From the NCBI GenBank assembly GCA_902784675.1, contig CACZVR010000028.1:1-46856 (forward strand): a stretch of 46,856 nucleotides of DNA, read 5' to 3'. Shown one piece after another: positions 8,963 through 41,098 of this stretch. Source of the stretch: an uncultured Bacteroidales bacterium. Lineage in GTDB: Bacteria > Bacteroidota > Bacteroidia > Bacteroidales > Muribaculaceae. Within the stretch, counting starts at the first letter, position 1. Every line of letters begins with the position of its first letter. Made by a program: the position numbers and the translations under genes. The notes under the pieces are model-generated. The model searched no databases. It was not told where the DNA came from and was given only the letters and a program-made list of their open reading frames with translations.

Positions 8963-9054
8963 TACTTTTGCCCGTTTTTTTTCAAAAAAAATCATAAAGG
9001 AGATTCCTAATTCCTAGCGTTTCAAATAAAAATTCAAGAAAAAAAAGCAACTTT

Positions 9055-24165: not shown

Positions 24166-24172
24166 TTTCACA

Positions 24173-24252
24173 ATTTTCGGTTCTCAGTTGCCAGTTTTTA
24201 GCGGCATCCGCTTTCTACTGACAACTGAAGACTGAAAACTGACAACTAAAAA
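24173..24252. repeat. Heptamer-phased inverted element, TTNTCAG type
   Basis: Left arm (24174-24201): TTTTCGG, TTCTCAG, TTGCCAG, TTTTTAG. The core, CGGCATCCG at 24202-24210, reads GCGGATGCCGC on the other strand with its flanks. Right arm (24218-24252): CTGACAA, CTGAAGA, CTGAAAA, CTGACAA, CTAAAAA, the reverse complement of the left-arm unit. Both arms keep an exact 7-nt step. It lies between the SPFH and Arc-like genes. Confidence 0.85.
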
Positions 24253-24261
24253 AAGCAGACC

Positions 24262-24486
24262 ATGGCAAAGAAAGCCACAAAGAGTTTCATCCTGCGTGTC
24301 GACAGCGACACGATGGATGCCATTGAGAAATGGGCAGCCGACGAGTTCCGTTCCACCAACGGCCAGTTGCAGTGGATCATTACCGAGGCGCTGCGCAAGG
24401 CCCGCCGTCTGCCCAAAAAGAAACGCGAGCCCGAAGAGGGAACTCAAAAAGACACTCCCAACTCAACTGAAAACTCAGCATCATGA
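24262..24486 (+). CDS. Arc-like ribbon-helix-helix DNA-binding protein (74 aa)
   Basis: The N-terminal half fits the ribbon-helix-helix fold: strand KSFILRVDSD (about 7-16), helix TMDAIEKWAADEFRS, and helix NGQLQWIITEALRKA. The C-terminal ~25 residues are a charged, probably disordered tail (PKKKREPEEGTQKDTPN). Arc-family proteins bind operator DNA as dimers or tetramers through the strand. The stop codon overlaps the next gene's ATG (ATGA at 24483-24486), so the two are translationally coupled. The candidate target is the inverted repeat at 23137-23155; this is inference. Confidence 0.85.
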   Translation: MAKKATKSFILRVDSDTMDAIEKWAADEFRSTNGQLQWIITEALRKARRLPKKKREPEEGTQKDTPNSTENSAS

Positions 24487-25088
24487 ATCTCAGTAAAAAA
24501 ACAAAAAGTCGCCTGATTACCTACGGCACCATGCTGCCGCTGTTGGGCATTCTGTGCTATCTGCTCTACACTGGCGCCATCAGCAAAGTGGTGTTTTGGG
24601 GTGTCATCATTGTCTGGATGATCCTCAACGCGTTTATCCAGTACAAGTTGAATCCCGAGCAGTTTCAGCAGGCATATGATGAGAGCAAGAAAGCCGAAGA
24701 AAACGAAATGAAGGTGAAAGTTCCCCCGAGCTGGGCCACAATTGCCTGTGATGTCATCATTGCGCTCATGTACATTGCCTCATGGGTGCTGGTGATTCAT
24801 CAAGGCACACTTGTCAGCAACCTTGTGAGCCTTCTCGTTCTCACGTTTGTGCTTGTCGTCTTTGTAGGGCTCAACTACATTCCGCAAAAAGTCGAAGTCA
24901 TTGACGGTGTGGCCAACTGGAAGCGTCTCATCGTGGAAATGTGGCGCAACCGCATTGTTGCATTCCTGTTCGCACTGGCGTTCTTCGGCATCACTATTGA
25001 CGCTCACTCATTGCTGGCTAAAATCTCTTTGGCAGCATTTGTCCTGATCCTGTTTTTCTCGGGCTATTTCATCCGACGAATCAAGTAA
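24483..25088 (+). CDS. Polytopic membrane protein of unknown function (201 aa)
   Basis: I do not recognise a named family. About six hydrophobic segments are visible: ~12-30, 34-53, 84-103, 107-131, 156-172 and 178-196. A charged loop (residues 55-80, YKLNPEQFQQAYDESKKAEE) lies between the second and third. It overlaps the Arc-like gene by 4 nt and precedes the 58-residue membrane protein by 28 nt, so it is part of the SPFH operon. It may be a partner of the SPFH oligomer. Confidence 0.75.
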   Translation: MNLSKKTKSRLITYGTMLPLLGILCYLLYTGAISKVVFWGVIIVWMILNAFIQYKLNPEQFQQAYDESKKAEENEMKVKVPPSWATIACDVIIALMYIASWVLVIHQGTLVSNLVSLLVLTFVLVVFVGLNYIPQKVEVIDGVANWKRLIVEMWRNRIVAFLFALAFFGITIDAHSLLAKISLAAFVLILFFSGYFIRRIK

Positions 25089-25116
25089 TTATCCAACATA
25101 TAAGATCTTTACCGCT

Positions 25117-25293
25117 ATGGACCGCAAGAAAGCAATTTACATTTTCGCTATCGTCGACACTTTGGTCAACTTTCTCATCATCGTCTTGTTTTTGTTAGGC
25201 AAGTTGAGTCTGACGGGTTTTGCCATCACGCTGGGCGTCGCCATGCTCATTGCGTTGGGCGCGGCTGCCATCATCATCCGCAAGACCGAGTGA
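25117..25293 (+). CDS. Small two-helix membrane protein (58 aa)
   Basis: The ATG at 25117 opens a 58-codon frame ending with TGA at 25291-25293. The product starts MDRKKAIYIFAIVDTLVNFL, has a first hydrophobic segment at about 7-27, a short polar turn (GKLSLTG) and a second at about 34-54, and ends in the basic RKTE. It fits the gap between the polytopic membrane gene and the nuclease gene with 28 nt before and 7 nt after. That spacing and the coding-like composition support it. Function unknown. Confidence 0.7.
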   Translation: MDRKKAIYIFAIVDTLVNFLIIVLFLLGKLSLTGFAITLGVAMLIALGAAAIIIRKTE

Positions 25294-25300
25294 AGGTACT

Positions 25301-26136
25301 ATGAAAAAGCACATGGAGCGGGTTTGGCAACGGTGGGGCGACGCCGTCAGGTTCCTTGGTTGGGGCCTAGCGGTGGCGTTGGTATGCTTTTTGCTGTATC
25401 GCGTGTTCGTGAACGGTAACGCTACACATCTGGTGCCCTTGAGCGAGGCTGGGCGCGACAGCCTGATGATGGTTGCCGTGCCTTGTGGCATGAGCGACAC
25501 GCTGGTGCGCTATGACGCCTTCATCGTGCATTTCAACAGCGAGCGGGGCATCGCCAACTGTGCTGCCTATGAGCTCACCCGCAACGAGTTGAACGGAAGC
25601 GTTGAACGCAGTGACGAGTTCATGGCCGACCCCAGCGTGAAGGGTTGCCCCTCGCCAGCCGACTATGCAGGCAGCGGGATGGACCGCGGCCACCTGGTGC
25701 CGGCTGCCGACCTCAAGTGGAGCCCCGACGCCATGCAGCAGTCGTTCCTGCTGACCAACGTGTGCCCGATGCACAAGACGCTCAACGAGGGCGGCTGGGC
25801 CAAGCTCGAGGAGAAAGTGCGCGAATGGACCCGTCGCGACAGCGCCCTGCTGGTGTTCAGCGGGCCCGTGGTGAGCGGCGAGACACGACAATGGCCGACG
25901 GGCATGTGACGGTGCCCGGTGCCTTCTACAAGGTCGTCGTGGCGCCCTGCGTGAGGCCGATGCGGGCCGTCGCGTTCATCTATCCCAACGGGCACAGCGG
26001 GGGACGGTTGCGGCAGTATGCTGTGAGCATCGACGAGGTGGAACGCCGCACGGGGCTGGATTTCCTCCCCACTCTGCCCCTTGAGGAGCAGCAGCGGCTG
26101 GAATCCAGGATCCACCTCGAGGCGTTCATGAATTAG
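25301..26136 (+). pseudogene. Membrane-anchored DNA/RNA non-specific endonuclease, frameshifted
   Basis: From ATG 25301 the product begins MKKHMERVWQRWGDAVRFLG with one membrane anchor at about 19-36. The NUC1/EndA-type nuclease domain follows, with the catalytic motif GMDRGHLVPAADLKW and NVCPMHKTLNEGGWAKLEEKV. The frame runs into a stop at 25907-25909 (…SGETRQWPTGM). In the -1 frame the missing end continues at once: MADGHVTVPGAFYKVVVAPC, then RAVAFIYPNG and VERRTGLDFLP to a stop at 26134. The intact paralogue at 26177 aligns across the joint, placing a one-base loss near 25883-25892. No slippery heptamer is visible, so programmed frameshifting is unlikely. It could be a recent mutation or an assembly error. 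Confidence 0.8.
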
Positions 26137-26174
26137 GAGTTAGATAATTAGGCTTTAGGTTTTAGGTTTTAAGG
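26131..26174. repeat. Heptamer-phased array, NNTTAGG type
   Basis: Units AATTAGG, AGTTAGA, TAATTAGG (8 nt), CTTTAGG, TTTTAGG, TTTTAAG run from the 3' end of the nuclease pseudogene to just before the next ATG. The pseudogene's stop codon is inside the first unit. No inverted arm is visible. Confidence 0.7.
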
Positions 26175-26176
26175 AT

Positions 26177-27157
26177 ATGAAACAAGTTGTGAAGATTTGG
26201 GTGTTGGTTGTGGCGATGGTGATGGGCGGTGCCCTGCCACCGCAAGTCATTGGAGACGGTGACATCACTATGCAGTGGTGCGCCCAGGCCAAGAACAAGC
26301 ACAAGAAAAACAAGAAGTCCAAGAAGAAAGACAAGGTCAAGAAAGACAAGAAACAGGCTACAGCTCACAAGAAATCAAAAAAAGCCGACAAGAAGCATCA
26401 GGCAGCCACCGCTTCGCCCCTGGCCAGCCTGCCAGCCATCGGCCATGCCTCTCCAGCCACTGCCATGCCACAGCAGGGGTCCAACGCGCTACTGGCGGTC
26501 ACCATCCCCAAGGGCGTTGCCAACCAGGTGCTCAACTATCAGGCCATCCGCGTGAATTTCAACCCCTCGCTGCGCATTCCCAATTGCGTGGCCTATGAGC
26601 TCACCGCTACGATGGTCGCCATGGCCGACGCCCCCGACCACGAGGTGCGCAAGAACTACAACTATGCTAAGGATTCCAGTGTCAAGTCCTGCCCCGACAA
26701 CTGGGAATACCGCGACAGCGGCTACAGCCGTGGCCACATGGCGCCCGCCATGGACATGCGATGGGACAAAACCGCGATGAAGCAGTGTTTCTACATGACC
26801 AACATGTGTCCGCAGAACACCAAACTCAACAACGACCACTGGCGTGTGCTCGAGGAAAAGGTACATCGCTGGGCCAAGCGCGACAAGCGCATCCTCATCT
26901 TCACGGGACCTATCATGGGCAAGAGCCCCAAAATGATTGGCAAGGACAAAGCCAACATCGCTGTCCCCGATGCCTTCTTCAAGGTACTCTACGCTCCCGA
27001 ACAGGGCCGTTCCATCGCCTTCATCTACGAGAACCGCCCCAGCCCCGGCGGCATCAGCAAATATGCCGTCACGGTCGCCGAGGTCGAGCGCCGCACGGGC
27101 CTCACCTTCTCCAGCGCCATCCCCAAGCGCCAATGTAAAATCGAGGACTGGCAATAA
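26177..27157 (+). CDS. Secreted DNA/RNA non-specific endonuclease with a lysine-rich linker
   Basis: The 326-residue protein has a signal-like hydrophobic N-terminus (about 5-20). Residues ~39-74 are extremely Lys-rich (KNKHKKNKKSKKKDKVKKDK) and an Ala/Pro-rich spacer follows to about 105. The nuclease domain covers ~105-315: the DRGH motif appears as SRGH at 184-187 (catalytic His187), then NMCPQNTKLNNDHWRVLEEK with the metal-ligand Asn and the conserved Glu, and SIAFIYENRPSPGG and EVERRTGLTF near the end. The family cuts DNA and RNA without sequence preference, using Mg2+. The basic linker may hold nucleic acid or the cell surface. It is a tandem paralogue of the frameshifted gene upstream. 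Confidence 0.9.
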   Translation: MKQVVKIWVLVVAMVMGGALPPQVIGDGDITMQWCAQAKNKHKKNKKSKKKDKVKKDKKQATAHKKSKKADKKHQAATASPLASLPAIGHASPATAMPQQGSNALLAVTIPKGVANQVLNYQAIRVNFNPSLRIPNCVAYELTATMVAMADAPDHEVRKNYNYAKDSSVKSCPDNWEYRDSGYSRGHMAPAMDMRWDKTAMKQCFYMTNMCPQNTKLNNDHWRVLEEKVHRWAKRDKRILIFTGPIMGKSPKMIGKDKANIAVPDAFFKVLYAPEQGRSIAFIYENRPSPGGISKYAVTVAEVERRTGLTFSSAIPKRQCKIEDWQ

Positions 27158-27162
27158 CAGCG

Positions 27163-27254
27163 AGGAGGGAGGAGAGAGGAGAGAGGAGAGAGGAGAGAAG
27201 AGTGAACGCGGACGTCCCCCTACTCGCTCCCCGCTACTCCCTCCTCTCTACTCT
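27163..27254. repeat. Heptamer-phased inverted element, AGGAGAG type
   Basis: Left arm (27163-27204): AGGAGGG, four AGGAGAG units, AAGAGTG. Core (27205-27219) contains GCGGACGTCC at 27208-27217. Right arm (27220-27254): CTACTCG, CTCCCCG, CTACTCC, CTCCTCT, CTACTCT, complementary in character to the left arm and also in exact 7-nt register. It lies between two convergent genes and could form a long imperfect hairpin. A small GCTCGC/GCGAGC hairpin follows at 27255-27269. Confidence 0.85.
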
Positions 27255-27270
27255 GCTCGCAAAGCGAGCA

Positions 27271-27942
27271 CTAACCCAGGATGATGGCGATCACCGCATT
27301 GATGTCCTGCACGTTGACCTCGCCGTCGCGATTCACGTCGGCTCTTTCCATCGTGTCGGGATCCACCTGCCCGAAAATCGCTGCGATAATGGCATTGATG
27401 TCGGCAATGTTGATCTCACCGTCCACTACCACATCGGCATTCAGCGCCGAACTCATCACAATCTGTCGCACGGCACCGCTGCTGTTCACGTCGCCTTTCC
27501 AGGCGGCAAAGCGCAAGCGTGCCTTGCTCATGGTGCGGGGCACGGTGATAGACAGCGGTATCTGGTTGACGCGCCCCACACTGGTCGGCACAAAGGTGAC
27601 CGAATCCACTGTCACCCCGTTCTCGTCCAGCAGGGCGGCTGTCAAGGCCACCTTGCTCACCACAAAGTCGGGCTCCTGCCATTGGGTAGTGACCCACGTC
27701 ACGTCCATGTCGATCACCTCGCCCTTGCGACACACGAACTGGGGCGACGTGAGCGTCAGATGCAGACCTGTGCTCGTGGTGTAGAGAAAGATTTTGTTTC
27801 CCAGAATATTGTCACTGTTGAGCGCGGTAGCCGGATTGGTGTAAATCCAGTCATCAAAACTTTTGTTGGAAAACTGCGGCAGCTGCGCCCAGGCGCCACA
27901 TGCCAACAACATCACACAGGCAAGAAGAAGTAATCGTTTCAT
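27271..27942 (-). CDS. Small secreted dockerin-containing protein of unknown function
   Basis: I place the start at 27942 (MKRLLLLACVMLLACGAWAQ, a good signal peptide) rather than the ATG at 27978, which overlaps the promoter. The 223-residue product has a central beta-sandwich-like domain (~25-150). The C-terminus has dockerin-like F-hands: DVVVDGEINIADINAIIAAI and ADVNRDGEVNVQDINAVIAIIL. A third, weaker loop-like sequence, GDVNSSGAVRQIV, precedes them. LLAC could be read as a lipobox, but cleavage at AWA-Q is more likely. The dockerin type matches the CotH-type protein at 19757. The binding partner is unknown; no cohesin-like domain is recognised in the window. Confidence 0.8.
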   Translation of the reverse strand: MKRLLLLACVMLLACGAWAQLPQFSNKSFDDWIYTNPATALNSDNILGNKIFLYTTSTGLHLTLTSPQFVCRKGEVIDMDVTWVTTQWQEPDFVVSKVALTAALLDENGVTVDSVTFVPTSVGRVNQIPLSITVPRTMSKARLRFAAWKGDVNSSGAVRQIVMSSALNADVVVDGEINIADINAIIAAIFGQVDPDTMERADVNRDGEVNVQDINAVIAIILG

Positions 27943-27964
27943 AACAATAAATGGTTTGATTGCA

Positions 27965-27972
27965 CAAAGGTA
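27965..27972 (-). promoter_or_regulatory. Putative -7 box of the small dockerin gene
   Basis: TACCTTTG on the minus strand fits TAnnTTTG and ends 22 nt before the ATG at 27942. It supports that start over the one at 27978. No clean -33 box. Confidence 0.55.
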
Positions 27973-28016
27973 GCACAATCAAACCATTCAGCGAAAAGAA
28001 ATCAGGTGTTATTGTT

Positions 28017-30074
28017 TTACTTGAGCATGCCGATGGAGCGCTTGAGGAAACGTTCCAAGCCCTCGCCCTTGAGCATGTTGTTGCTCAACAGGGCGATGTC
28101 GATGAGCTGATGCACGCGACTCTCGCCGGCGCCATAGGCGGTGATGAGGTTCTCGCGCTGCTTTCGCAGCTCGTCGAGGTGCTTGCGGTTGTCCTCAAGT
28201 TCCTTTTTCTTGTCCTCGGGGAGTCCCTTGCCGTCCTTGTCAAGGTCGCGGATGGCATCGACCACATGCTGGGTGGCGTTGATCTGCTCGTTGACGAGCT
28301 TGAGGTCGGCATCGAGGGCTTTCTCGGCCAGGTCGACAATCTTCTGCACCAGCGGATGCTTGGTGTTGAGCACGAGGCTGTACATGTCGGGCATCTCGCC
28401 ATAGAAGCTCATGCCGGGCTGGAAGCGCGCCATATCCTTCATGCGGCGCATATACTCGGCCTGGGTGATGACAAGGGGCTTGTCGTCGGGGCTCATGGCG
28501 GCAAAGCTGACCATGAACTCGGCCTTCTCGACGGGCGGGATCTGGGACTGGAACAGGCTGCGGGCGATGTCCTGCTGCTCGGGTGTGAACTGCGGGGTGT
28601 TGTCATCCTGCTTGGGGATGAGATTCTCGAGCACGTCGCTGTCGACGCGCAGGAAACGCATTTTGGCATCCTGCTGCTTCTGCTCGAGCATGTCCATGAA
28701 GGGCACGTCCAGCTCGCCGTTCATCATCAGTACGTCATAGCCATGGTCGGTGGCCGCCTTGATGTAGGCATACTGCGCCTCCTTGTCGGTGGCATAGAGG
28801 CAGATGAGGTTGCCGTCCTTATCGGTCTGCTCACCCTTGATGAGGTTGCGGTAGTCCTCGAGCTTGAAGAACTTGCCGTCGGTGTTCTCGAGCAGGGCGA
28901 ACTTGAGGCCCGACTCGCAGAACTTGTCGTCGCTCAACATGCCATACTCGATGAAGATCTTGATGTCGTTCCACTTCTTCTCGAACTCCTCGGGCTGGTT
29001 CTTGGCGATTTCCTCAAGGCGGGCGGCGACCTTCTTGGTGATATAGGTCGAGATCTTCTTGACGGCACGGTCGCTCTGCAGATAGCTGCGCGACACGTTC
29101 AGAGGGATGTCGGGGCTGTCGATGACACCCTGCAGGAGCATCAGCCAGTCGGGGACAACGCCCTCGACACTATCGGTGACATAGACCTGGTTGCAATAGA
29201 GCTGGATGCGGTCCTTGCGGATGTCGAGGTTGTTCTTGATCTTGGGGAAATAGAGGATACCCGTGAGGGTGAAGGGATAGTCCACGTTGAGGTGAATCCA
29301 GAACAAGGGATCGTCCTGACCCGGTTCGATGGCATGGTAGAACTTGAGGTAGTCCTCGTCCTTGAGGTCGGCAGGCATGCGCGACCACAGCGGCTCGATG
29401 TCGTTGATGACCTTGTCGCGGTCGGTGTCCACATACTTACCGTCCTTCCACTCCTGTTCCTTGCCGAAGACGATGGGCACGGGCAGGAAGCGGCAATACT
29501 TGCGCAGCAGGCCCTCGATGCGTGCAGGCTCGAGGAACTCCTTCTCGTCCTCGTCGAGGGTGAGGATGATGTCGGTGCCGCGCTCGGACTTGTCACAGTC
29601 GCCCATCTCGAACTCGGGCGAGCCGTCGCAGGTCCACTGCACCGCCTGGGCACCGTCCTGCCAGCTCAGGGTGCGGATTTCCACCTTCTTGGCCACCATG
29701 AAGGCCGAGTAGAAGCCCAAACCGAAGTGGCCAATGATGGCGTTGGCCGTGTCCTTGTATTTAGCAAGGAACTCCTCGGCCCCCGAAAAGGCGATCTGGT
29801 TGATGTACTTGTCGATTTCCTCGGCAGTCATGCCGATGCCGCTGTCGCTCACGGTGAGCGTGCCAGCCTCTTTATCGACACTGATGTTGACACACAGGCC
29901 CTCGGTCGAGCCCTTGAACTCGCCAGCACCGGCAAGGGTCTTGAGCTTCTGCGTGGCATCGACAGCGTTGCTCACCAGCTCGCGCAGGAAAATCTCGTGG
30001 TCACTGTAAAGAAATTTCTTGATTACGGGGAAGATGTTGTTAGTCGTTACCCCAATAGTTCCTTTTGTTGGCAT
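28017..30074 (-). CDS. htpG: HtpG, Hsp90-family chaperone
   Basis: The 685-residue cytoplasmic ATP-dependent chaperone has the full N-terminal GHKL ATPase: FLRELVSNAVDATQKL (Glu32, Asn36), DSGIGMT at 77-83 and GHFGLGFYSAFMV at 115-127. The middle domain includes PLFWIHLNVDYPFTLTGILY and DIPLNVSRSYLQSD, the latter holding the Arg that contacts ATP. The C-terminal dimerisation domain follows. Length is usual for Bacteroidota and longer than E. coli HtpG. I see no TAnnTTTG promoter upstream; the leader holds two TTTTAGT repeats at 30084-30097. Heat-shock control is expected from the family but not visible here. Confidence 0.97.
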   Translation of the reverse strand: MPTKGTIGVTTNNIFPVIKKFLYSDHEIFLRELVSNAVDATQKLKTLAGAGEFKGSTEGLCVNISVDKEAGTLTVSDSGIGMTAEEIDKYINQIAFSGAEEFLAKYKDTANAIIGHFGLGFYSAFMVAKKVEIRTLSWQDGAQAVQWTCDGSPEFEMGDCDKSERGTDIILTLDEDEKEFLEPARIEGLLRKYCRFLPVPIVFGKEQEWKDGKYVDTDRDKVINDIEPLWSRMPADLKDEDYLKFYHAIEPGQDDPLFWIHLNVDYPFTLTGILYFPKIKNNLDIRKDRIQLYCNQVYVTDSVEGVVPDWLMLLQGVIDSPDIPLNVSRSYLQSDRAVKKISTYITKKVAARLEEIAKNQPEEFEKKWNDIKIFIEYGMLSDDKFCESGLKFALLENTDGKFFKLEDYRNLIKGEQTDKDGNLICLYATDKEAQYAYIKAATDHGYDVLMMNGELDVPFMDMLEQKQQDAKMRFLRVDSDVLENLIPKQDDNTPQFTPEQQDIARSLFQSQIPPVEKAEFMVSFAAMSPDDKPLVITQAEYMRRMKDMARFQPGMSFYGEMPDMYSLVLNTKHPLVQKIVDLAEKALDADLKLVNEQINATQHVVDAIRDLDKDGKGLPEDKKKELEDNRKHLDELRKQRENLITAYGAGESRVHQLIDIALLSNNMLKGEGLERFLKRSIGMLK

Positions 30075-30083
30075 TTTATTATG

Positions 30084-30097
30084 TTTTAGTTTTTAGT
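30084..30097. repeat. Two TTTTAGT heptamers upstream of htpG
   Basis: TTTTAGT occurs twice in tandem, followed by TACTGAT. Only two clean units, so this may be a remnant of the heptamer arrays seen elsewhere or chance. Confidence 0.35.
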
Positions 30098-30204
30098 TAC
30101 TGATTGATGGAGGCATAATGGTCTCTGTCCACTGTACATCAAATAACATGCCATTGCCGTGCAAAGTGACAAATCGTCACCCCAGTCTGCCAATACTTAA
30201 CCAG

Positions 30205-30238
30205 TCGCGCCGCGGCCCTCATCAGAGCCACGGCGCGA
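30205..30238 (-). terminator. GC-rich hairpin after the second CotH-type gene
   Basis: TCGCGCCGCGGC pairs with GCCACGGCGCGA (12 bp, one mismatch), 34 nt past the stop of the minus-strand gene. There is no T-tract on either side, so its action as an intrinsic terminator is doubtful. Confidence 0.4.
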
Positions 30239-30271
30239 AGCGTTCTTTACATGTTCCCTCAAATGGGGGTA

Positions 30272-32203: not shown

Positions 32204-32260
32204 GAACAGGATATCAATAAAAACAGATCATCTGGCCAGGAGGTCAGGGCTTGTAAGATA

Positions 32261-32818
32261 TCAGCGCTGGGCAAAAGCTTCGCCGTTCACGCCGATGAGT
32301 TCCTCATAGGCCAGCACACCAGCCTGTGACAATTCCACAGTGGTGTAACCGCCGTCACGGTTGAGGATGTTCACATGGGTGTCGTCAACAAAGGTGAACA
32401 GCTCTACCTCCTTGCCGTTGTTCTCGAGCGACCATGAGTTGCTCTCGGCATTGAAGTTGAAGCGAGTCACCTGGTTGGTGTTCAGGTTGGTGATGGCATA
32501 TCCCGTGGCATCGCGAGCCACCAGATAGCGGGCGTCCTTACCATCCACAATGGTGGTCTCGTTCTGAGCCAGCGCGGGGTTGGTACCCGACCAGAACTCG
32601 ATGCTGTTGAGGATGAACAAGTCGGCGACAAAGCTCAACTCATACACGGGCAAAATCCACATGGCCACGAAAACCAGCTCGTTAACGAACTTGTCACCCA
32701 CATGGTCGTTCCAATTCTTCACCTTGTTATAGAGGGCAAAGCTACCGATACAAGATTGCATCATCATGGATGCTGACAGAGCCACAACGGCGACAACGAT
32801 TAAATGTTTCTTCTTCAT
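32261..32818 (-). CDS. DUF3332 lipoprotein
   Basis: The 185-residue protein has a lipoprotein signal with the lipobox around MQSC (Cys22). It matches the DUF3332 pattern: CIGSFALYNKVKNWNDHVGD, a hydrophobic segment FVAMWILPVYELSFVADLFI, then NSIEFWSG. The rest is a small beta domain (RYLVARDATGYAITN). The family has no known function. It lies 60 nt after the MltF-like gene on the same strand and may belong to the cdsA-mltF unit. Confidence 0.85.
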   Translation of the reverse strand: MKKKHLIVVAVVALSASMMMQSCIGSFALYNKVKNWNDHVGDKFVNELVFVAMWILPVYELSFVADLFILNSIEFWSGTNPALAQNETTIVDGKDARYLVARDATGYAITNLNTNQVTRFNFNAESNSWSLENNGKEVELFTFVDDTHVNILNRDGGYTTVELSQAGVLAYEELIGVNGEAFAQR

Positions 32819-32878
32819 AATTACATGATTATATTTGGTTATACAATTTTTCTTTGAGCACTGATGCCAAACGCCTAA

Positions 32879-34261: not shown

Positions 34262-34266
34262 GAGCC

Positions 34267-35115
34267 TCAATGAATGTTGGGAACGATAAGCGTCAGGTAA
34301 AGCAGCACAGCCGGAGAAACCAGCAGCAGGCTGTCAATACGGTCAAGAATGCCGCCATGGCCCGGCAAGAGAGTGCCTGAGTCCTTGACACCGACGGTGC
34401 GCTTGATGAGCGACTCGACCAGATCGCCAAAGGTAGCAAACACCGCCACCACGACGCTCAGGCCAACCCAGGTCATCAGTTCGGGCACCTGGAAAAACTC
34501 GTCAAACCAGTAGTGGCTAGCAAAAGCGCCCGCCACACACACGGCCACGCCGCCAATCACACCTTCCCATGACTTCTTGGGCGAGATGCGCTCGAACAGG
34601 CGATGACGACCCAAGAGCATGCCCACGCAATAGGCGCCCGTGTCATAGAGCCATATGAACATGAACATCCCCAGCAGCAAGCGGGGAGCCGAGATGCTGG
34701 CGATGCTGTTGAGCAAGGCAATGGGCAAAGCCACATAGCCCAACGAGAAATAGGAGCGCTCAAAACTGTGAACGGCATTCTGGCGAGGCCTGTAAAGCTG
34801 CACAATCGTCCTCAACAAGATGTAGCAGACCAACGGCAGCAGCCACATGGCGCGCGACTGCATCGTCGTGCCGTAATAATGGAGATAAAACCCCACGAAC
34901 AAACCGACTCCGCCAAACATGTCAATGACGTTCACCAACCACGATTGGGTGGCATCGTCCTTGGCCATGGTGATCATCTCGCCAATGCCCAAGACAATGA
35001 ACAGCGAGAACACCAGCAGATACATCACCGGCGAGTTGTCGAGCAGCAGAATAGCCAACACGATCAATGCTATATAAATGGCACCCGTGAGGATGCGTTT
35101 AATCAAGTTCATCAT
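34267..35115 (-). CDS. cdsA: Phosphatidate cytidylyltransferase
   Basis: The start at 35115 (MMNLIKRILTG) is chosen because a good promoter at 35137-35168 overlaps the longer frame that begins at 35184; 35112 is also possible. The ~282-residue integral membrane enzyme makes CDP-diacylglycerol from phosphatidic acid and CTP, the first committed step to phospholipids. About eight membrane helices are visible. The C-terminal signature SLIKRTVGVKDSGTLLPGHG followed by GILDRIDSL is complete, and GRHRLFERISPKKSWEG precedes it. The gene leads an operon with mltF and probably DUF3332. Confidence 0.94.
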   Translation of the reverse strand: MMNLIKRILTGAIYIALIVLAILLLDNSPVMYLLVFSLFIVLGIGEMITMAKDDATQSWLVNVIDMFGGVGLFVGFYLHYYGTTMQSRAMWLLPLVCYILLRTIVQLYRPRQNAVHSFERSYFSLGYVALPIALLNSIASISAPRLLLGMFMFIWLYDTGAYCVGMLLGRHRLFERISPKKSWEGVIGGVAVCVAGAFASHYWFDEFFQVPELMTWVGLSVVVAVFATFGDLVESLIKRTVGVKDSGTLLPGHGGILDRIDSLLLVSPAVLLYLTLIVPNIH

Positions 35116-35136
35116 AATGATTCCTTTATTATTGTG

Positions 35137-35168
35137 CAAAGATACACTTTTATCGCGACATGGACAAA
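35137..35168 (-). promoter_or_regulatory. Promoter of the cdsA operon
   Basis: On the minus strand TTTG (35168-35165) and TATCTTTG (35144-35137) are 20 nt apart, a near-perfect Bacteroidota promoter 22 nt before the ATG at 35115. Confidence 0.82.
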
Positions 35169-35186
35169 CCGAGGCTAAAAACAATG

Positions 35187-35226
35187 ACGAAGCCTTCCGC
35201 GATAGTGCCGGAAGGCTTCGTTTTTC
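35187..35226. terminator. Terminator after the 51-residue gene
   Basis: ACGAAGCCTTCCG and CGGAAGGCTTCGT form a perfect 13-bp stem with a 9-nt loop. The plus-strand tail is TTTTT; the minus-strand tail is CATTGTTTTT. The only nearby gene transcribed toward it is the minus-strand 51-residue frame ending 35 nt away, which supports that gene. Confidence 0.75.
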
Positions 35227-35255
35227 CCTTGAGAGAGGATCATCGCCATGATGAG

Positions 35256-35411
35256 TTAATTCATGATCATCGATTCTAATCCTCGGGGCAACTCGACGTT
35301 GTACTCACAGGCCCTCGCAAATTGCTTGAGGAACTCAATGGTTGCCTTTTTCGGGCCACATACTTTTGTCATTACGTCATTTTCTTTTTTAGAAGTAGTC
35401 GTTTTGTGCAT
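35256..35411 (-). CDS. Small conserved-looking protein (51 aa)
   Basis: The minus-strand frame from ATG 35411 to TAA at 35258-35256 encodes 51 residues: a polar start (MHKTTTSKKENDVMTK), then VCGPKKATIEFLKQFARACE, then NVELPRGLESMIMN. The pattern VCxPKxxTIxFLxQFAR followed by a short tail ending in MN/LN resembles small Bacteroidales proteins I recall. A second possible start is the internal Met at residue 14. It has its own terminator 35 nt downstream. No promoter match was found upstream. The plus-strand frame over the same bases looks non-coding. Function unknown; it is probably a single helix with a Cys pair. Confidence 0.65.
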   Translation of the reverse strand: MHKTTTSKKENDVMTKVCGPKKATIEFLKQFARACEYNVELPRGLESMIMN

Positions 35412-35545
35412 AGGCAATCCGTTTTTTAATAATTACATCTTTATAACGCAACACCATTACACAATATTATGCGAGAGCGTCGTTTTAAGATTTTTTTTCA
35501 TCTCATTGACTTACACATCGCACACTACAGCATCATGGCAGTTAA

Positions 35546-35563
35546 AAAACAGCATGCTGTTTT
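35546..35563. promoter_or_regulatory. 18-bp perfect palindrome overlapping a -33 box, candidate operator
   Basis: AAAACAGCATGCTGTTTT is fully self-complementary and its right end covers the -33 TTTG at 35561-35564 of the next gene's promoter. A dimeric repressor bound here would block transcription. The cognate regulator is unknown. Confidence 0.5.
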
Positions 35564-35592
35564 GGGGTTTCATTGAAATTTTCGTACTTTTG
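35561..35592 (+). promoter_or_regulatory. Promoter of the 240-aa secreted protein
   Basis: TTTG at 35561-35564 and TACTTTTG at 35585-35592 are spaced by 20 nt. The start codon lies 27 nt downstream. Confidence 0.8.
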
Positions 35593-35618
35593 CCGTTGTT
35601 CAAAAACTCAAGAAAGCG

Positions 35619-36341
35619 ATGAAGGGATTAGACTTGAAAACCGTTTTGGCGGCAGTTGCTCTGCTCGGCACGGTTTGTAATGCCGCCAGCCAGGAGAAAG
35701 CCGACGGACGAGGCGCACTAGCAGCGCCCCAGGTGGAAGTGGACGCAAACGGACTGTTCACAGTGGAGGATTGCCCCACAGTTTACGACAGGTTCAACAT
35801 AGTGTTCCACGTAAGCGACTATGTAATCTCATCGGCCGACATTCTGTGGGATGGCGTGGAATGCCAAACCGTCAGCTTTGACAACGACAATGATTGCGTG
35901 ACCCGCATGGCCGTGCATTACCTGGACGCCAACTTTGACGGCTACCTGGATATCCTCTTGGGCACGGGCACCAACCGCGAGTACAGCGCCCTGTTGCTGT
36001 GGAATGAAGACGAGAACCGATTCGTGCGCGCCACCAACGACGGCTTTGTCATTTTCAACGGCGACTTTTTCTATGAGCCCGAAAGGAAGGCAATTTATCG
36101 CAGGACCTCAAGCAGCTATGCCGAGACCACCTACACGATGATGGTGTGGCAGGGCAGCGACCTGCAAAGTGAGGAAACGTTCCTCATCATCGGCGACAAA
36201 TCCCGTTATGATGACTATCACGTCACCCACCGCTACACCGTGCGCGGCTACTATTCAGACGAAGAAATCATCAGCACCGACGACCCTGCCAGCTTTGAAG
36301 GCCTCTGGAACGAATGGGCCATCAAAAAACTTCTGGATTAA
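35619..36341 (+). CDS. Secreted protein of unknown function (240 aa)
   Basis: The protein has a signal peptide (about 1-24, AVALLGTVCNAAS-Q). The rest appears beta-rich. A calcium-loop-like segment, YLDANFDGYLDILLGTGTNR (about residues 102-121), resembles FG-GAP/VCBS-type loops and the DxNxDGxxD pattern. Downstream are FYEPERKAIYRRTSSSYAET and a C-terminal FEGLWNEWAIKKLLD. I do not recognise a named family. It stands alone with a strong promoter, a palindromic candidate operator and a terminator shared with the convergent PUL. Calcium binding is inference. Confidence 0.75.
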   Translation: MKGLDLKTVLAAVALLGTVCNAASQEKADGRGALAAPQVEVDANGLFTVEDCPTVYDRFNIVFHVSDYVISSADILWDGVECQTVSFDNDNDCVTRMAVHYLDANFDGYLDILLGTGTNREYSALLLWNEDENRFVRATNDGFVIFNGDFFYEPERKAIYRRTSSSYAETTYTMMVWQGSDLQSEETFLIIGDKSRYDDYHVTHRYTVRGYYSDEEIISTDDPASFEGLWNEWAIKKLLD

Positions 36342-36343
36342 GG

Positions 36344-36421
36344 CGTTAGGTTTTAGGCGTTAGGCATTAGGTTTTAGGCATCAGTTGGCGGATGCCCACT
36401 CCTAACCCCTAACTTCTAACT
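36344..36421. repeat. Heptamer-phased inverted element, NNTTAGG type
   Basis: Left arm (36344-36378): CGTTAGG, TTTTAGG, CGTTAGG, CATTAGG, TTTTAGG. Spacer with core GCGGATGCC at 36389-36397. Right arm (36401-36421): CCTAACC, CCTAACT, TCTAACT, the reverse complement of the left unit, in register. It lies just after the stop of the 240-aa gene and before the bidirectional terminator. Confidence 0.85.
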
Positions 36422-36462
36422 TCAAGCATGTGCGGACGAAACGGAGGGTGGGATGCGAAAAC

Positions 36463-36500
36463 AATAAGGCAGGGAGCGGTGATGCTCTCTGCCTTATTTT
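36463..36500. terminator. Bidirectional terminator between convergent genes
   Basis: AATAAGGCAGGGAGC pairs with GCTCTCTGCCTTATT (15 bp, one G-T), 6-nt loop. The plus tail is TTGTTATT and the minus tail GTTTTCGC. It ends the 240-aa gene and the PUL transcript from opposite sides. Confidence 0.8.
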
Positions 36501-36517
36501 GTTATTGTCGTTACCTT

Positions 36518-39500
36518 TTAGCGGACGGTGAAGTCGGCCTTGAGGGGGAGGTTGTCGCTGGCGGTGCCCACGAGCATCGTGCGCTTGCCCAGCGAGGTGG
36601 CCCAGCCGCCTTTACCCTCGTCCCAGTACTGGAAAGCGCGGCCACCGATGGAGATGGTAACGTCACGGCTCTCACCGGGTTGAAGGGTGACCTTCTGGAA
36701 TCCGCGCAACTCCTTGACGGGCATCTCGACATTTGCGTTCTTGTCGCTGACGTAGAGCTGGACGACCTCGGCGCCGGCACGGTTGCCGGTGTTCTTGACG
36801 GTCACTGTGGCAGTCACTGTGCCGTCGGCCGCTACCTCACGCTTGTCGAGGCGCAGGTTGCTCACTGCGAAGGTCGTGTAGCTCAAGCCATGGCCGAATG
36901 CAAAAGCAGGCTTCTTATTCTGCTTGTCGGCCCAACGGTAACCCACATAGATGCCTTCCTTGTACTCCTCGTCGATGATCTTGTGGTCATCACGCCAGGT
37001 GCCGGGATAGGCACCCAGGGCATGTGCACCCACATCGTTGAGGGTCTGATACCAGGTGAAAGGCAGTTTACCCGAGGGATTCACGTCGCCCACGAGTATG
37101 CTGGCGAACGCTTTTCCCGTCTCACTGCCGATAAACCAGCCCTGCACAATTGCAGCGATCTTGTCACGCCAGGGCATCGCCACAGCGTCACCCGAGATGT
37201 TGACAAAAACCACGTTCTTGTTCACGCGAGCCAGTGCCTCAACGAGTTCATCCTGACCGTAGGGCATATCCATGTGCTTGCGGTCATGACCCTCGGCATC
37301 CTGATAGTCGCTCTTGTTGAGACCACCAAAGATGATGACATAGTCGGCACCCTGAGCCTTGGCAACAGCTTCGGCAATCAATTCACTGGCCGAGCGGTTG
37401 TCGGCCAGCGATTGCTTGGCCACCACACCATTGTACTCACCTGTGGTGTCACCCACATAGCCGCGAGCATAGTCCACCTCGATGCCGGTGCCCGCCAAGC
37501 GAGCCTTGAGACCTTCAAGGGGCAGAATCTCGTGCTGTGCCTTGAGTGAACTGCTGCCGCCACCCACAGTCATCATCTTGATGGCGTTCTCGCCGACAAC
37601 GAGGATGCGCTTGGCATTGTTCACATCGATGGGCAGGACGTTGCGCTTGTTCTGCAACAGCACGATGCCGTCCTGAGCAATCTTGAGCGCAGCGTCATAG
37701 TGCGCCTCGCTGCACAGGAAACCCTGGGTACGATTCTTGCTCATCGTCGTGCGGAAGAACAGGCGCAACACGCGGCGCACCTTATCATCGAGTTCACGCG
37801 TCGTGAACTTGCCTTCTTGAATGAGTTTCTTGTAAGGTTGGGCCATGTAGTAGGCATCATAGGCGTTGCTCGCGCCCCATGCCAGGCCGTCGGTCCAGCT
37901 GCCGAACTCCATGTCCAGGCCGTTTTTGACAGCCATTTCGGTATCATGAGCACCGCCCCAGTCACTGACCACCACGCCGTCATACTGCCAGTCACCCTTC
38001 AGAATCTGATTGAGGGTGTAGTCGTTTTGGCAGCAATGCTGGTTCTTGTAAAGGTTATAGGAGCCCATCATGCCCCATGCATGGCCGTCCTTGACGGCAG
38101 CCTCGAAGGCGGGCAGATAAATCTCGCGCAAGGCGCGGTCGTTGACGATGACATTGACCTGATGGCGGTATTCCTCGTCGTTGTTGAGGCAGAAGTGCTT
38201 GACACACGCTGCCGTGCCCGTGCTTTGCAGGCCCTGGACATAGGGCACCACCATGCGCGATGCCAGCAGAGGATCCTCGCCCATGTACTCAAAGTTGCGA
38301 CCGTTCAACGGGGTGCGGTTGATGTTCACGCCCGGGCCCAGAATCATGTCCTTGCCACGGTAGCGGGCTTCTTCACCCAGACTGCGGCCATAGAGGTTGG
38401 CCAGCGCAGGGTTCCACGAGGCAGCAAGACACGTCAACGCGGGAAATGCCACGCACGAGTCGTTGGTCTGCCCTGCCTGCACCCACTCGTCCCACAGGAC
38501 GTCGGGGCGCACGCCGTGAGGACCGTCATCGGTCCAGAAGTCAGGCATACCCAATCGTTTCACACCTGGTGACGAGAACTTGCTCTGAGCATGGATAACG
38601 GCGATTTTCTCGTCAAGCGTCATGCGCGACAAGGCATCCTCGACACGCGACTCGATGGGCAAACTCTCGTCAAGATAGAGAGGCAGTTGCGGGGTCATCC
38701 CCAGCGACTGGATGTAATCCATTTGCGGAGTGCAGTGCTCATAGCGGCTATTCTCCACATACTGCATCAGCAACTGGCGGAATGTGGCCTGGTCAGGACG
38801 TGCCTCGCGCAATTCCTTGTAGGTGCCACGGGGTGACTCGGAGTATTTCACGACGATGCTGTCCCACATCTCGGGGCGGGTGATACCCATCATGCACGAG
38901 CCGTCAATCTTCTTGTAGGGCCAGAAGGTGTAGCCGATGTTGGCTTTCTTCATCACATCCACCAACTGCGCTTGCCACTCGTTGTTGTTGTGGCCTGTCT
39001 CACCCATATACATGGGCAAACCCGTCTTATCGCGGAAGTCGATGTAGTCCTTAATGGCCTCGGCTGTGGCATCACCGCCATAGCGATGACAGGTGTACAT
39101 GATGTTGTCATCAAATTTCCAGTCGCTGAACATGTAGAAATCGGAGTTCCAACGAGCGCCGCCCAAGAGGATAACGTGATTGGGGTCCACTTGGCGGATG
39201 GCCTTGACAGCCTGCTTGTAGAGCGGTTCCAATTGCTTGTTCAGTTCGTCCTTGTTCTCGAAATAGTGGGCAATCGGCTCATTCATCAGTTCATAGCCCA
39301 GAATCACTGGCTCGTCCTTGTAACGAGCCGCGATGCGTTGCCAGATGTCGCAGAACAGCTGCTGGCTGGGTTCGCTCTCAAAGAGCCAGGGATAACCATG
39401 ACCATCGTCGATATTATCGCCAGTCTGACCGCCCGGACAATCGTGCATGTCGAGAATGAGATACAGGCCATAGGCACGGCACCAGTTCACCACCGAGTCA

Positions 39501-39913
39501 ATGCGAGCGAAGCCATCTTGCTCCTTGGAACGCCCCATATAGTCCTCATCGGTGAAGAGCCTGTAGTTAAAAGGCAAGCGAATGGTGTTAGCGCCTTGTC
39601 GTGCAATGAAACCGATGTCGGCACGCGTGATGTAATTGTCCTTGAACTGACGCCAGAACTCGGCTGCGAAGTCGGGTCCGACAGCCTCCTTGATCATCAG
39701 GTCAATCATCCACGGCGAGTTGGTCTTGCTCAAGCCAAACATATAGCCCTCGGGGTTGAGCCAGTTACCCAGGTTGGTGCCCTGGATATACAGTTTCTCA
39801 CCGTCAGGCTTCACCAGATTGGTGCCCTCGACGCGGACGAACTTGTCTTGGGGCTTAGCTTGAAGCCCCAAGGCAAGGACTAGAGAGAGTATGATAACTA
39901 AGAATCCTCTCAT
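36518..39913 (-). CDS. Bimodular glycoside hydrolase: GH5-like N-terminus fused to GH3 beta-glucosidase
   Basis: The 1131-residue protein has a signal peptide (1-19, LALGLQA-K). Residues ~22-385 form a GH5 (clan GH-A) barrel: LYIQGTNLGNWLNPEGYMFG at 41-60, LDMHDCPGGQ, acid/base Glu212 in ELMNEPIA and nucleophile Glu305 in YMGETGH. Residues ~415-1010 form GH3: TDDGPHGVRPD, ILGPGVNINRTPLNGRNFEY, TAACVKHFCLNNDEEYRH, and nucleophile Asp651 in GVVVSDWGGAHD. A C-terminal fibronectin-III-like domain ends the chain, as in many GH3 enzymes. One protein can thus make both an internal or exo cut and final glucose release from beta-glucan oligosaccharides. It is the last gene of the PUL, 21 nt after GH16. 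Exact GH5 subfamily not determined. Confidence 0.9.
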   Translation of the reverse strand: MRGFLVIILSLVLALGLQAKPQDKFVRVEGTNLVKPDGEKLYIQGTNLGNWLNPEGYMFGLSKTNSPWMIDLMIKEAVGPDFAAEFWRQFKDNYITRADIGFIARQGANTIRLPFNYRLFTDEDYMGRSKEQDGFARIDSVVNWCRAYGLYLILDMHDCPGGQTGDNIDDGHGYPWLFESEPSQQLFCDIWQRIAARYKDEPVILGYELMNEPIAHYFENKDELNKQLEPLYKQAVKAIRQVDPNHVILLGGARWNSDFYMFSDWKFDDNIMYTCHRYGGDATAEAIKDYIDFRDKTGLPMYMGETGHNNNEWQAQLVDVMKKANIGYTFWPYKKIDGSCMMGITRPEMWDSIVVKYSESPRGTYKELREARPDQATFRQLLMQYVENSRYEHCTPQMDYIQSLGMTPQLPLYLDESLPIESRVEDALSRMTLDEKIAVIHAQSKFSSPGVKRLGMPDFWTDDGPHGVRPDVLWDEWVQAGQTNDSCVAFPALTCLAASWNPALANLYGRSLGEEARYRGKDMILGPGVNINRTPLNGRNFEYMGEDPLLASRMVVPYVQGLQSTGTAACVKHFCLNNDEEYRHQVNVIVNDRALREIYLPAFEAAVKDGHAWGMMGSYNLYKNQHCCQNDYTLNQILKGDWQYDGVVVSDWGGAHDTEMAVKNGLDMEFGSWTDGLAWGASNAYDAYYMAQPYKKLIQEGKFTTRELDDKVRRVLRLFFRTTMSKNRTQGFLCSEAHYDAALKIAQDGIVLLQNKRNVLPIDVNNAKRILVVGENAIKMMTVGGGSSSLKAQHEILPLEGLKARLAGTGIEVDYARGYVGDTTGEYNGVVAKQSLADNRSASELIAEAVAKAQGADYVIIFGGLNKSDYQDAEGHDRKHMDMPYGQDELVEALARVNKNVVFVNISGDAVAMPWRDKIAAIVQGWFIGSETGKAFASILVGDVNPSGKLPFTWYQTLNDVGAHALGAYPGTWRDDHKIIDEEYKEGIYVGYRWADKQNKKPAFAFGHGLSYTTFAVSNLRLDKREVAADGTVTATVTVKNTGNRAGAEVVQLYVSDKNANVEMPVKELRGFQKVTLQPGESRDVTISIGGRAFQYWDEGKGGWATSLGKRTMLVGTASDNLPLKADFTVR

Positions 39914-39934
39914 TAGGTCAATTGGGTTAAACGG

Positions 39935-41035
39935 TTATTTCTTTTGGAAGACGCGCACATAGTCCACCTCCATGGTTGCAGGAAGTGCACTCTCGTCAAC
40001 GCCTTGAGCGCCACCCCAGTCACCACCCCAAGCGAGGTTGAAGATGACGTAGAACGGGTCATCATAGGGCCAGTCGTCGCGGCCCAGGCCACGGTTGTCG
40101 TAGCTCAGTTGTACCTTACCGTCAACATAGGTGGTGATGTTCTGAGCCGTCCATAAGATAGCATAGGTGTGGAACTCGCCCTCGGCGCCCTTGCAGTACA
40201 TCTCGTGGGTCACCTGGGTGCCGTTGGAATGAACATGAGCATTGGCATGCAGGCTCGACGACACAAAGTCGGGGTGGTAACCCACCTCTTCCATGATGTC
40301 GATCTCGCCGTCGGCAGGCCAGGAATGGAAGTTCACGGGCATCATCCAGAAGGCGGGCCAGGTACCCTTGCCCTTAGGCAGCTTGATGCTGGCCTCGATG
40401 TAGCCATACTTCCAACCCTCTTTCACCTTGGCATAGACGCGACCAGAGTAAACCTTGCCGTTCTCCTTGAGCGCGGTAATGCGCAGATGACCGTTGCGCA
40501 CCTCGGTGACTAACTTGCCTTCGGGTGTCTTGTGATTCACATAGTTCTGCAACTCGTGGTTCACCCAGCCACTGCTTTGAACCTCGTGCCTCCAATCATC
40601 GGCATTCAGTTCCGAGCCCTTGTCGAACTCATCGTACCAAACCAGCTTGTAGCCATCGGGGGCATAGTAAGCAGCCTCGGCCGACGCTTCCTGCTTGACA
40701 TTGATCGACTTGCGTGCAGCACCCGACTGGATGGTAACCACACCCTCACGGGCCTCGGTCAACGGGTTAGCGGCGACCGTGATCGTGATAGAGCCCGACT
40801 GCGACAACGTATTCTTGGTTTCAAATGTGATGAAATCCTTGTCGGCATAGGCTCCCCACTCCTTGCCCGTGGTGGTGACATTGACAGTGTAAGTGCCGCC
40901 ACTGGCAGGAACAGCGATATTTTCCTGTGAGACAGTGATGGTCCCTGTGGGCTCATCTTTGCCGTCCCCACCGCAGCCCCAAAGGGCCACGGTGAGACAC
41001 AGCAATAATGTGTGAAGCATGAATCGTTTCATCAT
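39935..41035 (-). CDS. GH16 beta-glucanase lipoprotein with N-terminal BACON-like domain
   Basis: The 366-residue protein has a lipobox ALWGC (Cys21), so it is probably at the cell surface. Residues ~32-118 look like a BACON domain (ITVSQENIAVPASGGTYTVN, then EWGAYADKDFITF). The GH16 domain (~125-365) has the catalytic signature GEIDIMEEVG with Glu244, Asp246 and Glu249, preceded by GTWPAFWMMPVNFHSWPADG and followed by DDPFYVIFNLAWGGDWGG. The ExDxxE form with one extra residue is typical of laminarinase-type and mixed-linkage glucanases. It would make the first cut in the glucan for SusD/SusC import. Confidence 0.95.
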   Translation of the reverse strand: MMKRFMLHTLLLCLTVALWGCGGDGKDEPTGTITVSQENIAVPASGGTYTVNVTTTGKEWGAYADKDFITFETKNTLSQSGSITITVAANPLTEAREGVVTIQSGAARKSINVKQEASAEAAYYAPDGYKLVWYDEFDKGSELNADDWRHEVQSSGWVNHELQNYVNHKTPEGKLVTEVRNGHLRITALKENGKVYSGRVYAKVKEGWKYGYIEASIKLPKGKGTWPAFWMMPVNFHSWPADGEIDIMEEVGYHPDFVSSSLHANAHVHSNGTQVTHEMYCKGAEGEFHTYAILWTAQNITTYVDGKVQLSYDNRGLGRDDWPYDDPFYVIFNLAWGGDWGGAQGVDESALPATMEVDYVRVFQKK

Positions 41036-41098
41036 TTTCAGTTTTCAGCTTTCAGTTTTCAGTTGAGAGCAGAAGCCACAGCAACTGACGACTGACTA
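41035..41098. repeat. Heptamer-phased inverted element inside the PUL, TTTTCAG type
   Basis: Left arm (41035-41062): TTTTCAG, TTTTCAG, CTTTCAG, TTTTCAG. Core-like GCAGAAGCC at 41069-41077. Right arm (41085-41098): CTGACGA, CTGACTA, the reverse complement of the left unit. It fills the gap between the glycan-binding gene and the GH16 gene. Confidence 0.75.

Follow-up and report, generated by a model that had tools for sequence, protein, structure and literature searches.

The 46,856-nucleotide stretch of DNA analyzed here in full (the window: contig CACZVR010000028.1 of assembly GCA_902784675.1, from an uncultured member of the Bacteroidales, family Muribaculaceae) carries, in the gaps between its genes, short elements made of 7-nt units set out in one or two arms. 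One subfamily of these elements has been copied to unrelated gaps; at one and the same gap, species differ in the presence or absence of an array, in whole units, or in the class of hairpin that occupies it; and the arms have a definite polarity with respect to the genes. Our preferred reading, to which we give a probability of about 0.43, is that these are short non-coding elements consisting of one or two convergent arms (TYAGNNN … NNNCTRA), some of them around the 9-mer GGCATCCGC, that spread as copied, non-autonomous elements. The initial annotation of the window had suggested a mobile or self-propagating family, and genome-wide spread, gain, loss and copying all speak in its favor.

That annotation reported two arms in 7-nt phase in four gaps of the window, a description that was correct and, if anything, understated. 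Lag-7 self-matches amount to 44/73 at 24173–24252, 60/85 at 27163–27254, 45/71 at 36344–36421 and 36/57 at 41035–41098. In each gap the observed score is matched by none of 1000 dinucleotide shuffles, the score of the weaker arm by none of 400, and lag 7 (0.60–0.71) is the highest of all lags between 4 and 14; shuffled sequence, which had been proposed as a check, yields no such arrays. The first element (24173–24247; like the next three, listed without a strand) is of CTGA type and lies between the SPFH gene and the next open reading frame (ORF; ATG at 24262), with a left arm at 24173–24199, the core AGCGGCATCCGC at 24200–24211, and a right arm, (ACTGANA)n, at 24217–24247. The second (27159–27254) combines a GAGGAGA array (27159–27206), a unit that falls outside the TYAG type, with an imperfect CTCC-rich second arm at about 27216–27254, and is flanked by a nuclease gene and by a dockerin gene on the opposite strand. 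The third (36346–36423) is of TTAGG type, its left arm at 36346–36378 and its right arm, (CCTAACY)n, at 36398–36423, with the core GCGGATGCC at 36388. In the fourth (41035–41098), a TTTTCAG array (41035–41064) abuts the start codon of a minus-strand GH16 gene and a second arm, CAACTGACGACTGACTA (41082–41098), abuts the stop codon of the minus-strand ORF that comes next. The length first given for such elements, 65–90 bp, holds in the window; elsewhere single arrays span 18–93 bp and many have no partner arm.

Copying is seen most directly in the CTGA subfamily. The pattern AGCGGCATCCGCNNTCAACT retrieved 54 stretches from GTDB genomes, of which 11 were set aside because their records are not named Bacteroidales; 10 of those 11 matches lie inside an ORF. 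In the other 43 stretches, all from metagenome-assembled genomes that carry the name of the Bacteroidales or of one of its families, there are 46 copies, with AGTTTTCAGTTGTCAGTTGTCAGTTGTC-AGCGGCATCCGC-ANTCAACTGAAAACTGAAAACTGAAAACTGAAAACTGAAAA as their majority sequence and a positional consensus that extends from about −28 to +50 of the core, beyond which the flanks are unrelated. The subfamily is, then, an interspersed repeat of about 78 bp, present as near-identical copies in unrelated gaps and typically situated tens of bases from a stop codon on one side and a start codon on the other. Three copies beside unrelated genes (L095, L115 and L133, the first two in one genome) are 97–99% identical over 75 bases, with flanks only 0.30–0.37 alike; pairs of copies that are 100% identical have a common flank or look-alike gene ends. 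At L115 (RUG12777 contig 26), a ruvB-like gene is flanked on both sides by CTGA-type elements. The exact pattern occurs in no IMG/VR stretch, phage records gave no match, and carriage on plasmids was rejected, the single 31-base plasmid match being judged a chance one.

Period-7 arrays are common in this genome and are almost confined to its gaps. Taking the longest ORFs of at least 90 codons as genes, a crude way of calling them, a self-match scan of 446,856 bases, made up of the window and the opening 20 kb of each of contigs C1–C20, found 20 arrays in intergenic DNA and one in predicted coding DNA, against a mean of 0.0 in five shuffles; periods 9 (10 arrays) and 14 (13 arrays) were over-represented too. 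About 846 kb of the same genome contain 35 period-7 arrays in 75.5 kb of intergenic DNA versus three in the 755 kb predicted to be coding, whereas three shuffles gave none; there are also 13 arrays of period 9 and 17 of period 21. Intergenic DNA is thus dominated by periods 7 and 9 and multiples of 7 (14 and 21), the remaining periods scanned giving zero to three arrays each. In other genomes of the genus the same scan gave 17 period-7 arrays in 20.3 kb (G009), nine in 25.3 kb (G015), four in 10.4 kb (G010), two in 10.0 kb (G005) and none in 7.6 kb (G012), so that separate assemblies of related species, where the arrays were to be looked for, do contain them. Twenty genomes from other families of the order yielded one array in 29.2 kb (shuffles, 0.3).

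Corresponding gaps in different species show arrays coming and going. At the LepB slot, where 30 loci were fetched and 28 read, 18 carry arrays of at least two units and 10 are empty. Among 25 of these loci the LepB stop codon is TAG in 12 of the 15 array-bearing gaps and in none of the 10 empty ones (Fisher p = 1e-4); three further loci, all with arrays, have TGA (G093) and TAG (G035 and G102), for a total of 14 TAG in 18. In nine of the 12 the TAG stands in 7-nt phase with the array, and at those nine loci the array therefore provides the stop codon. Presence and absence recur at the Xth-AAT, AAT-MiaA and LpxD-LpxC slots. Of the 17 of 30 loci read at the last of these, G009 and G032 have a CTGA element, G102 and G006 have other units, and some gaps have little or nothing. 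Opposite the G032 element, the close species G095 has only TCAGTTGTTAACTGA, a one-unit hairpin with no core (L306/L310), which is either a seed or a remnant.

The sister species G025 and G093, most of whose collinear blocks are 90–95% identical, have the LepB element and its core in common and differ in unit number in both arms; the Xth-AAT gap, empty of units in G025, holds eleven ACTAAGG/ACTAAAG units in G093. Over 200 kb the two differ by 47 length changes of at least 7 in stretches shorter than 700 bases. Of 36 listed changes of at least 10, seven involve a period-7 array, and most are therefore of other kinds. The seven include four extra units in one array, two different 7-nt units at one gap, and a gap at which the outer arms agree while the center is a period-9 block in one species and a near-core in the other. 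The two species also differ by a swapped element class. At about 27.2 kb of G025 contig C10, an insert of some 400 bases lies between TTAGT and ACTAA arms; G093 contig C32 has a period-9 inverted element at that place.

How the units vary within an array bears on how arrays arise. The majority of arrays are built of TTAG or TCAG units on one strand (8 of 49 in genome G000 are classed as other), the main units being TTAGGYD, TTAGTNN and TCAGTNN. In the 162 units of the 31 G000 arrays of TTAGG class, the first four positions are T158 T155 A157 G159, the fifth is G149, the sixth is C79 T57 A17 G9, and the seventh is T70 A49 G38 C5: five of seven positions are nearly fixed—TTAG at 96–98%—and two vary. 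The two-letter words at these last positions, read in the 21 G000 arrays in which every TTAGG is exact, are Y followed by T, A or G (YD) in 96 of 100 cases, and they follow one another in no particular order. Adjacent words are identical in 14 of 79 instances in G000 (18.9 expected on shuffling within arrays, 14.7 on shuffling over all arrays), in 9 of 29 in G009 (8.0 and 6.2), and in 38 of 125 in a set of mixed species (44.0 and 18.6, the second figure being low because dialects differ by species). The units are therefore not mainly runs of neighboring copies. Dialects include AG, AA and GG words in some species and YN words in others; G015 has TAGCNNN and CTCAACC units, and G010 has ATTGTGC. 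Exact four-unit runs of TTAGGNN occur in 21 of 61 genomes searched, with 156 overlapping matches in the window's own genome, and are absent from 18 of 36 relatives in the same genus.

These properties weigh on the explanation that the elements are heptamer microsatellites, in which polymerase slippage with a preferred 7-nt (and 9-nt) step builds the arrays where they stand, the opposite arm results from quasi-palindrome correction through template switching, and selection clears them from genes. Several points speak for it: sister species do differ by whole units, the period is strongly specific, most array sites lack the core, and the idea has already been put forward for heptamers in print (PMC4679880, PMC4692102). 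Random word order beside a fixed TTAG argues against plain slippage nonetheless, as the initial annotation had supposed it would fit poorly; nor would slippage readily give left and right arms of different units, as is often found in one element (TTAGGAA on the left, for example, and ACTAAGG on the right), or a family of copies that agree position by position and have a fixed core. It is already weakened, and we consider it unlikely.

The arms have a preferred direction. Read in the sense of the gene, arrays nearest a stop codon are 36 TYAG to 7 CTRA, and arrays nearest a start codon are 5 TYAG to 23 CTRA (Fisher p = 6e-8 for the contrast); nine arrays have other units, and 12 more than 60 nt from an edge and six inside genes were left out of the count. 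Arrays with no partner within 90 bp behave in the same way: 18 TYAG and 2 CTRA at left edges, 9 TYAG and 28 CTRA at right edges (p = 3e-6). TYAGNNN units thus typically follow stop codons, and NNNCTRA units precede start codons.

Polarity of this sort, even in arrays that stand alone, would be expected if the arrays were selected binding sites, offering one TYAG (or, in RNA, CTRA) every 7 nt to an RNA- or DNA-binding protein at gene ends. Five nearly fixed positions and two free ones also suit a binding site, and MacGregor proposes a post-transcriptional regulator for the TAACTGA repeats (PMC4679880). Young arrays would appear conserved without selection, however, and the units vary between and within species (TTAGG, CTGA, TAGCNNN, ATTGTGC, CTCAACC). 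RRM proteins bind UAG-like motifs and were the candidates considered, but none matched in 101 genomes of the genus, in a search whose control did find matches in Bacteroides and Synechococcus. We regard binding sites as distinctly improbable.

The same polarity, which resembles that of telomeres, leaves room for the addition of terminal repeats: at breaks in gaps, 7-nt units would be added to the 3′ end or ends by an enzyme that carries a short template of its own, and the ends would then be joined. On either side of the gap the TYAG strand does run mostly 5′ to 3′ inward from the edge of the gene; many arms stand alone, and two arms may have different units; words resemble independent draws from the dialect of the species; and the array often brings the upstream gene its stop codon (LepB TAG 12/15 versus 0/10). 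Neither the conserved core between the arms of some members nor a family copied as whole elements would be anticipated, however, and bacteria are not known to have such an enzyme, although no search for one was made. Terminal addition seems to us very unlikely, and its bolder form, in which bacteria possess a telomere-like, internally templated activity that adds species-specific 7-nt (or 9-nt) units at gap breaks and so produces convergent TYAG…CTRA arms, a shade more so. Whatever the mechanism, random word order and a single polarity of arms at gene ends give it a sharp target to hit.

Matches to the 9-mer GGCATCCGC, on whichever strand, are about 15 times as dense in gaps as in coding DNA (11 versus 7 occurrences in the 447-kb sample, one of the 11 being in fact the end of a LepB gene at a contig edge). 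Of the 82 array sites, 13 have an exact match no more than 40 nt away, compared with 16 of 573 gaps without arrays, an enrichment confined to a minority of sites; as a general mark of arrays it was therefore rejected. By genome, array sites with a match number 8 of 42 in G000, 5 of 23 in G009 and 0 of 17 in the G025/G093 stretches, and array-free gaps with one 10 of 343, 1 of 67 and 5 of 163, respectively; in a further set of 20 TTAGG loci, drawn from other contigs and other species, four have it exactly. It is present without 7-nt arms in composite blocks of L014 and L012.

The gap beside the SPFH gene (24166–24261 in the window) is occupied by different classes in different species. Among 30 species, nine have a CTGA element there, 13 a period-9 element (GCGAATTTCGCGAATT … AATTCGCGAAATTCGC, the variant in G026 included), five other inverted elements, one a short sequence, and two only 18–20 nt. 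In stems of period-9 elements the middle triplet covaries with its partner (TTT/AAA, TTA/TAA, TTC/GAA, TTG/CAA). A long hairpin of some class is present in 27 of the 30 species, and of the 28 slots long enough to fold 27 have z-scores between −3.95 and −9.35 (the window's own, −7.05), the short one scoring −1.65. Arms pair better with their own partner than with those of other elements in both the CTGA class (nine elements; 0 of 2000 permutations) and the period-9 class (12 of the 13 elements; 1 of 2000). On a tree of two genes (AAT and SPFH, 21 species) class is distributed at random, with 10 changes against a shuffled mean of 9.6, 161 of 200 shuffles being as low. Unrelated hairpin classes replacing one another in one slot are a natural test of structure without conservation of sequence. 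The suggestion that the elements form structured RNA is upheld at this slot at least, and a hairpin role is supported here only. In the four window gaps fold z-scores are, in order, −7.0, −0.5, −3.0 and −2.0, as low in 0, 115, 5 and 15 of 400 shuffles, so that the hairpin at 27163 is no better than its shuffles; Rfam matches above the gathering score in the window are two tRNAs only.

Several observations count against our preferred reading of copied, non-autonomous elements. Array gaps in G000 fold no more stably than others (mean z −1.88, n = 19, versus −2.08, n = 259; p = 0.53), the arms of 45 dispersed CTGA copies are not better paired in cis (1317 of 2000 permutations as low; 1768 for the outer arms), and in 15 two-armed TTAG elements the pairing is weaker in cis than in trans (−17.5 versus −22.4; 1972 of 2000 as low); on all three grounds a general hairpin role for the arrays, the other half of the structured-RNA suggestion, lacks support. 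The exact core is missing from 69 of the 82 array sites, including all 17 in the G025/G093 stretches; the ends of the elements are not fixed; no maker of them was found; and seven dispersed CTGA copies fall within our crude ORF calls. On a tree of the flanks of the SPFH gap, moreover, class is partly clustered (11 changes against a shuffled mean of 15.1; 1 of 200 as low), and some switches may therefore represent transfer of alleles rather than new insertions. Well-supported sisters still differ in class on that tree, G006 and G009 for instance (100/99), and one side of a starred branch consists of the three species that lack a long hairpin. We read the SPFH slot as one in which a hairpin has been retained in one clade, and its class exchanged several times, partly through transfer of whole alleles.

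A family with a positional consensus favors non-autonomous elements copied whole, and a possible course of events can be sketched. Elements would spread by being copied as hairpins, perhaps single-stranded, or by gene conversion, aided by some cellular or transposon enzyme, and their arms would later lengthen and shorten through recombination in steps of one unit. Copies might survive in gaps and hardly anywhere else, their TYAG arms next to stop codons and their CTRA arms next to start codons, either because they are harmless there or because they supply an intercistronic hairpin that affects mRNA spacing, stability or the uncoupling of translation.

A linked transposase of the RAYT/TnpA_REP type, an earlier proposal, was not borne out, and mobilization of the elements as REP/BIME repeats by a RAYT (Y1 transposase) is a long shot: of 101 genomes of the genus, 92 have a Y1_Tnp match (the window's own has four), and the elements are partly palindromic, intergenic and dispersed, but G015 has period-7 arrays and no Y1_Tnp match, and where flanks were inspected, for three of the four own Y1 genes, the palindromes are of other kinds. 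Scored period-7 arrays lie 1.2 kb from two of these genes and none lies within 1.5 kb of the third; one of them has a degenerate CCTA-rich stretch, below the score limit, some 0.2 kb away, and the ORF of another contains the 9-mer core. The small palindromes that flank the Y1_Tnp (RAYT-like) genes at L021 989–1463, L157 12668–13139 and L014 11388–11853, GGGTCGGAGACCC and CCTCGAAGAGG among them, look like REP-type repeats of their own.

Other repeats accompany those described. Partial arrays had been noted at 8362, 15704, 23007 and 26131, and Tandem Repeats Finder recovers all of these (the last at 26148); a fifth, at 30084, has only 2.1 units and is the weakest. The first is a TTTTCAG array without a partner arm (8362–8400, no strand assigned) within crude ORF calls, and the last a one-armed TTAGGYN array on the plus strand (26148–26171) that ends 5 nt upstream of the ATG at 26177. 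Not on the original list was an inverted period-9 element, GAGAATCTA / TAGATTCTC, at 13389–13433 (no strand assigned), between two POT-family transporter genes; it is another class of the same architecture as the period-7 elements. Nine is the second over-represented period genome-wide, with units TAGATTCTC, TTAAGGTCC and ACGAACGAA. One gap of L010 (6781–6841) has a tandem array of period 15 whose units resemble ACACAACCTTGTGTA, and there is a period-16 CCGTTTCGTCCGTTAT array in a separate gap (8980–9027), and composite blocks of CGCTAAGACGCAAAG, GTGGCATCCGCGTT and CGGATTATGCGGATT repeats occur at L014 14433–14501 and 18447–18487 and at L012 12454.

Among systems already described, REP/BIME, ERIC and MITE-type elements are likewise short, palindromic, intergenic, dispersed and non-coding, but their ends and lengths are more nearly fixed and they have no arms in 7-nt phase; the REP/RAYT arrangement in which the repeat directly flanks a RAYT gene was not seen at the three of four own Y1 genes inspected. 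MITEs have fixed terminal inverted repeats with target-site duplication; in the filled and empty gaps compared here, the empty sites are diverged. In the consensus of integron attC sites RYYYAAC is the left-hand motif and GTTRRRY the right-hand one; these sites were rejected as a model since the order of the arms here is the opposite (TTAG left, CTAA right), no search for an IntI integrase having been made. Tandem heptamers, some of them forming the arms of stems, are also found among the STRR repeats of cyanobacteria and in the heptanucleotide stem of the tRNA-Leu intron. Intergenic heptamer repeats have by now been noted in several phyla, with no known maker or function. The genus examined here makes their origin testable, with its many species, its same gaps filled and empty, its dialects, its fixed-core copy family and its differing sisters.

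The initial annotation knew of no named family that fits, and in this it was mistaken: the heptameric repeats of Xanthomonas and Nostoc and the TAACTGA repeats of the Beggiatoaceae are of the same kind. Rehm et al. (2015) describe intergenic (GGGANTN)n / GGGGAYT repeats in which positions 1–4 and 6 are conserved and the others free; in Xanthomonas these are 89–93% intergenic, form 70 and 75 convergent inverted pairs in two genomes, and mostly occupy the same gaps in two species with differing length and sequence (PMC4692102). Ours resemble them in their 7-nt period, intergenic position, part-fixed and part-free unit, convergent inverted pairs, and G-strand downstream of genes. Theirs, however, are GGGA units with G runs capable of forming quadruplexes, whereas here the unit is TYAG and the longest G run is usually GG; and the parts of that paper covered do not describe a conserved core, a swapping of classes or a family of copies. 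MacGregor (2015) reports TAACTGA direct repeats from Beggiatoaceae, Cyanobacteria and five Bacteroidetes, placed mostly forward before start codons, with indels that are mostly of 7 nt between two Cyanothece strains, a patchy distribution in which some relatives have none, and related heptamers sometimes mixed in; the Beggiatoaceae genome has one main unit in 2–6 copies and a single inverted case (PMC4679880). Period 7 and sense CTGA arrays directly before start codons are found here too. The exact TAACTGA unit is not—those of the window and the CTGA subfamily are ACTGACA, ACTGAAG and ACTGAAA—and our elements are two-armed and convergent, come in many dialects, and in some cases surround GGCATCCGC. 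Their period, place, polarity and convergent pairs put them in the kind, while they fall outside both sequence definitions, GGGA runs and exact TAACTGA.

Literature searches found nothing on palindromic heptamers in Bacteroidetes, heptamer repeats in Bacteroidales, interspersed repeats in Prevotella, or the tRNA-Leu intron heptanucleotide, and among the matches listed for the core 9-mer, judged by title and the start of the abstract, none looked related. As far as these searches show, then, what the Bacteroidales add to the earlier descriptions is a TYAG superfamily with a core in part of its members and a copied member of about 78 bp, the exchange of hairpin classes within one slot, and random word order within arrays.

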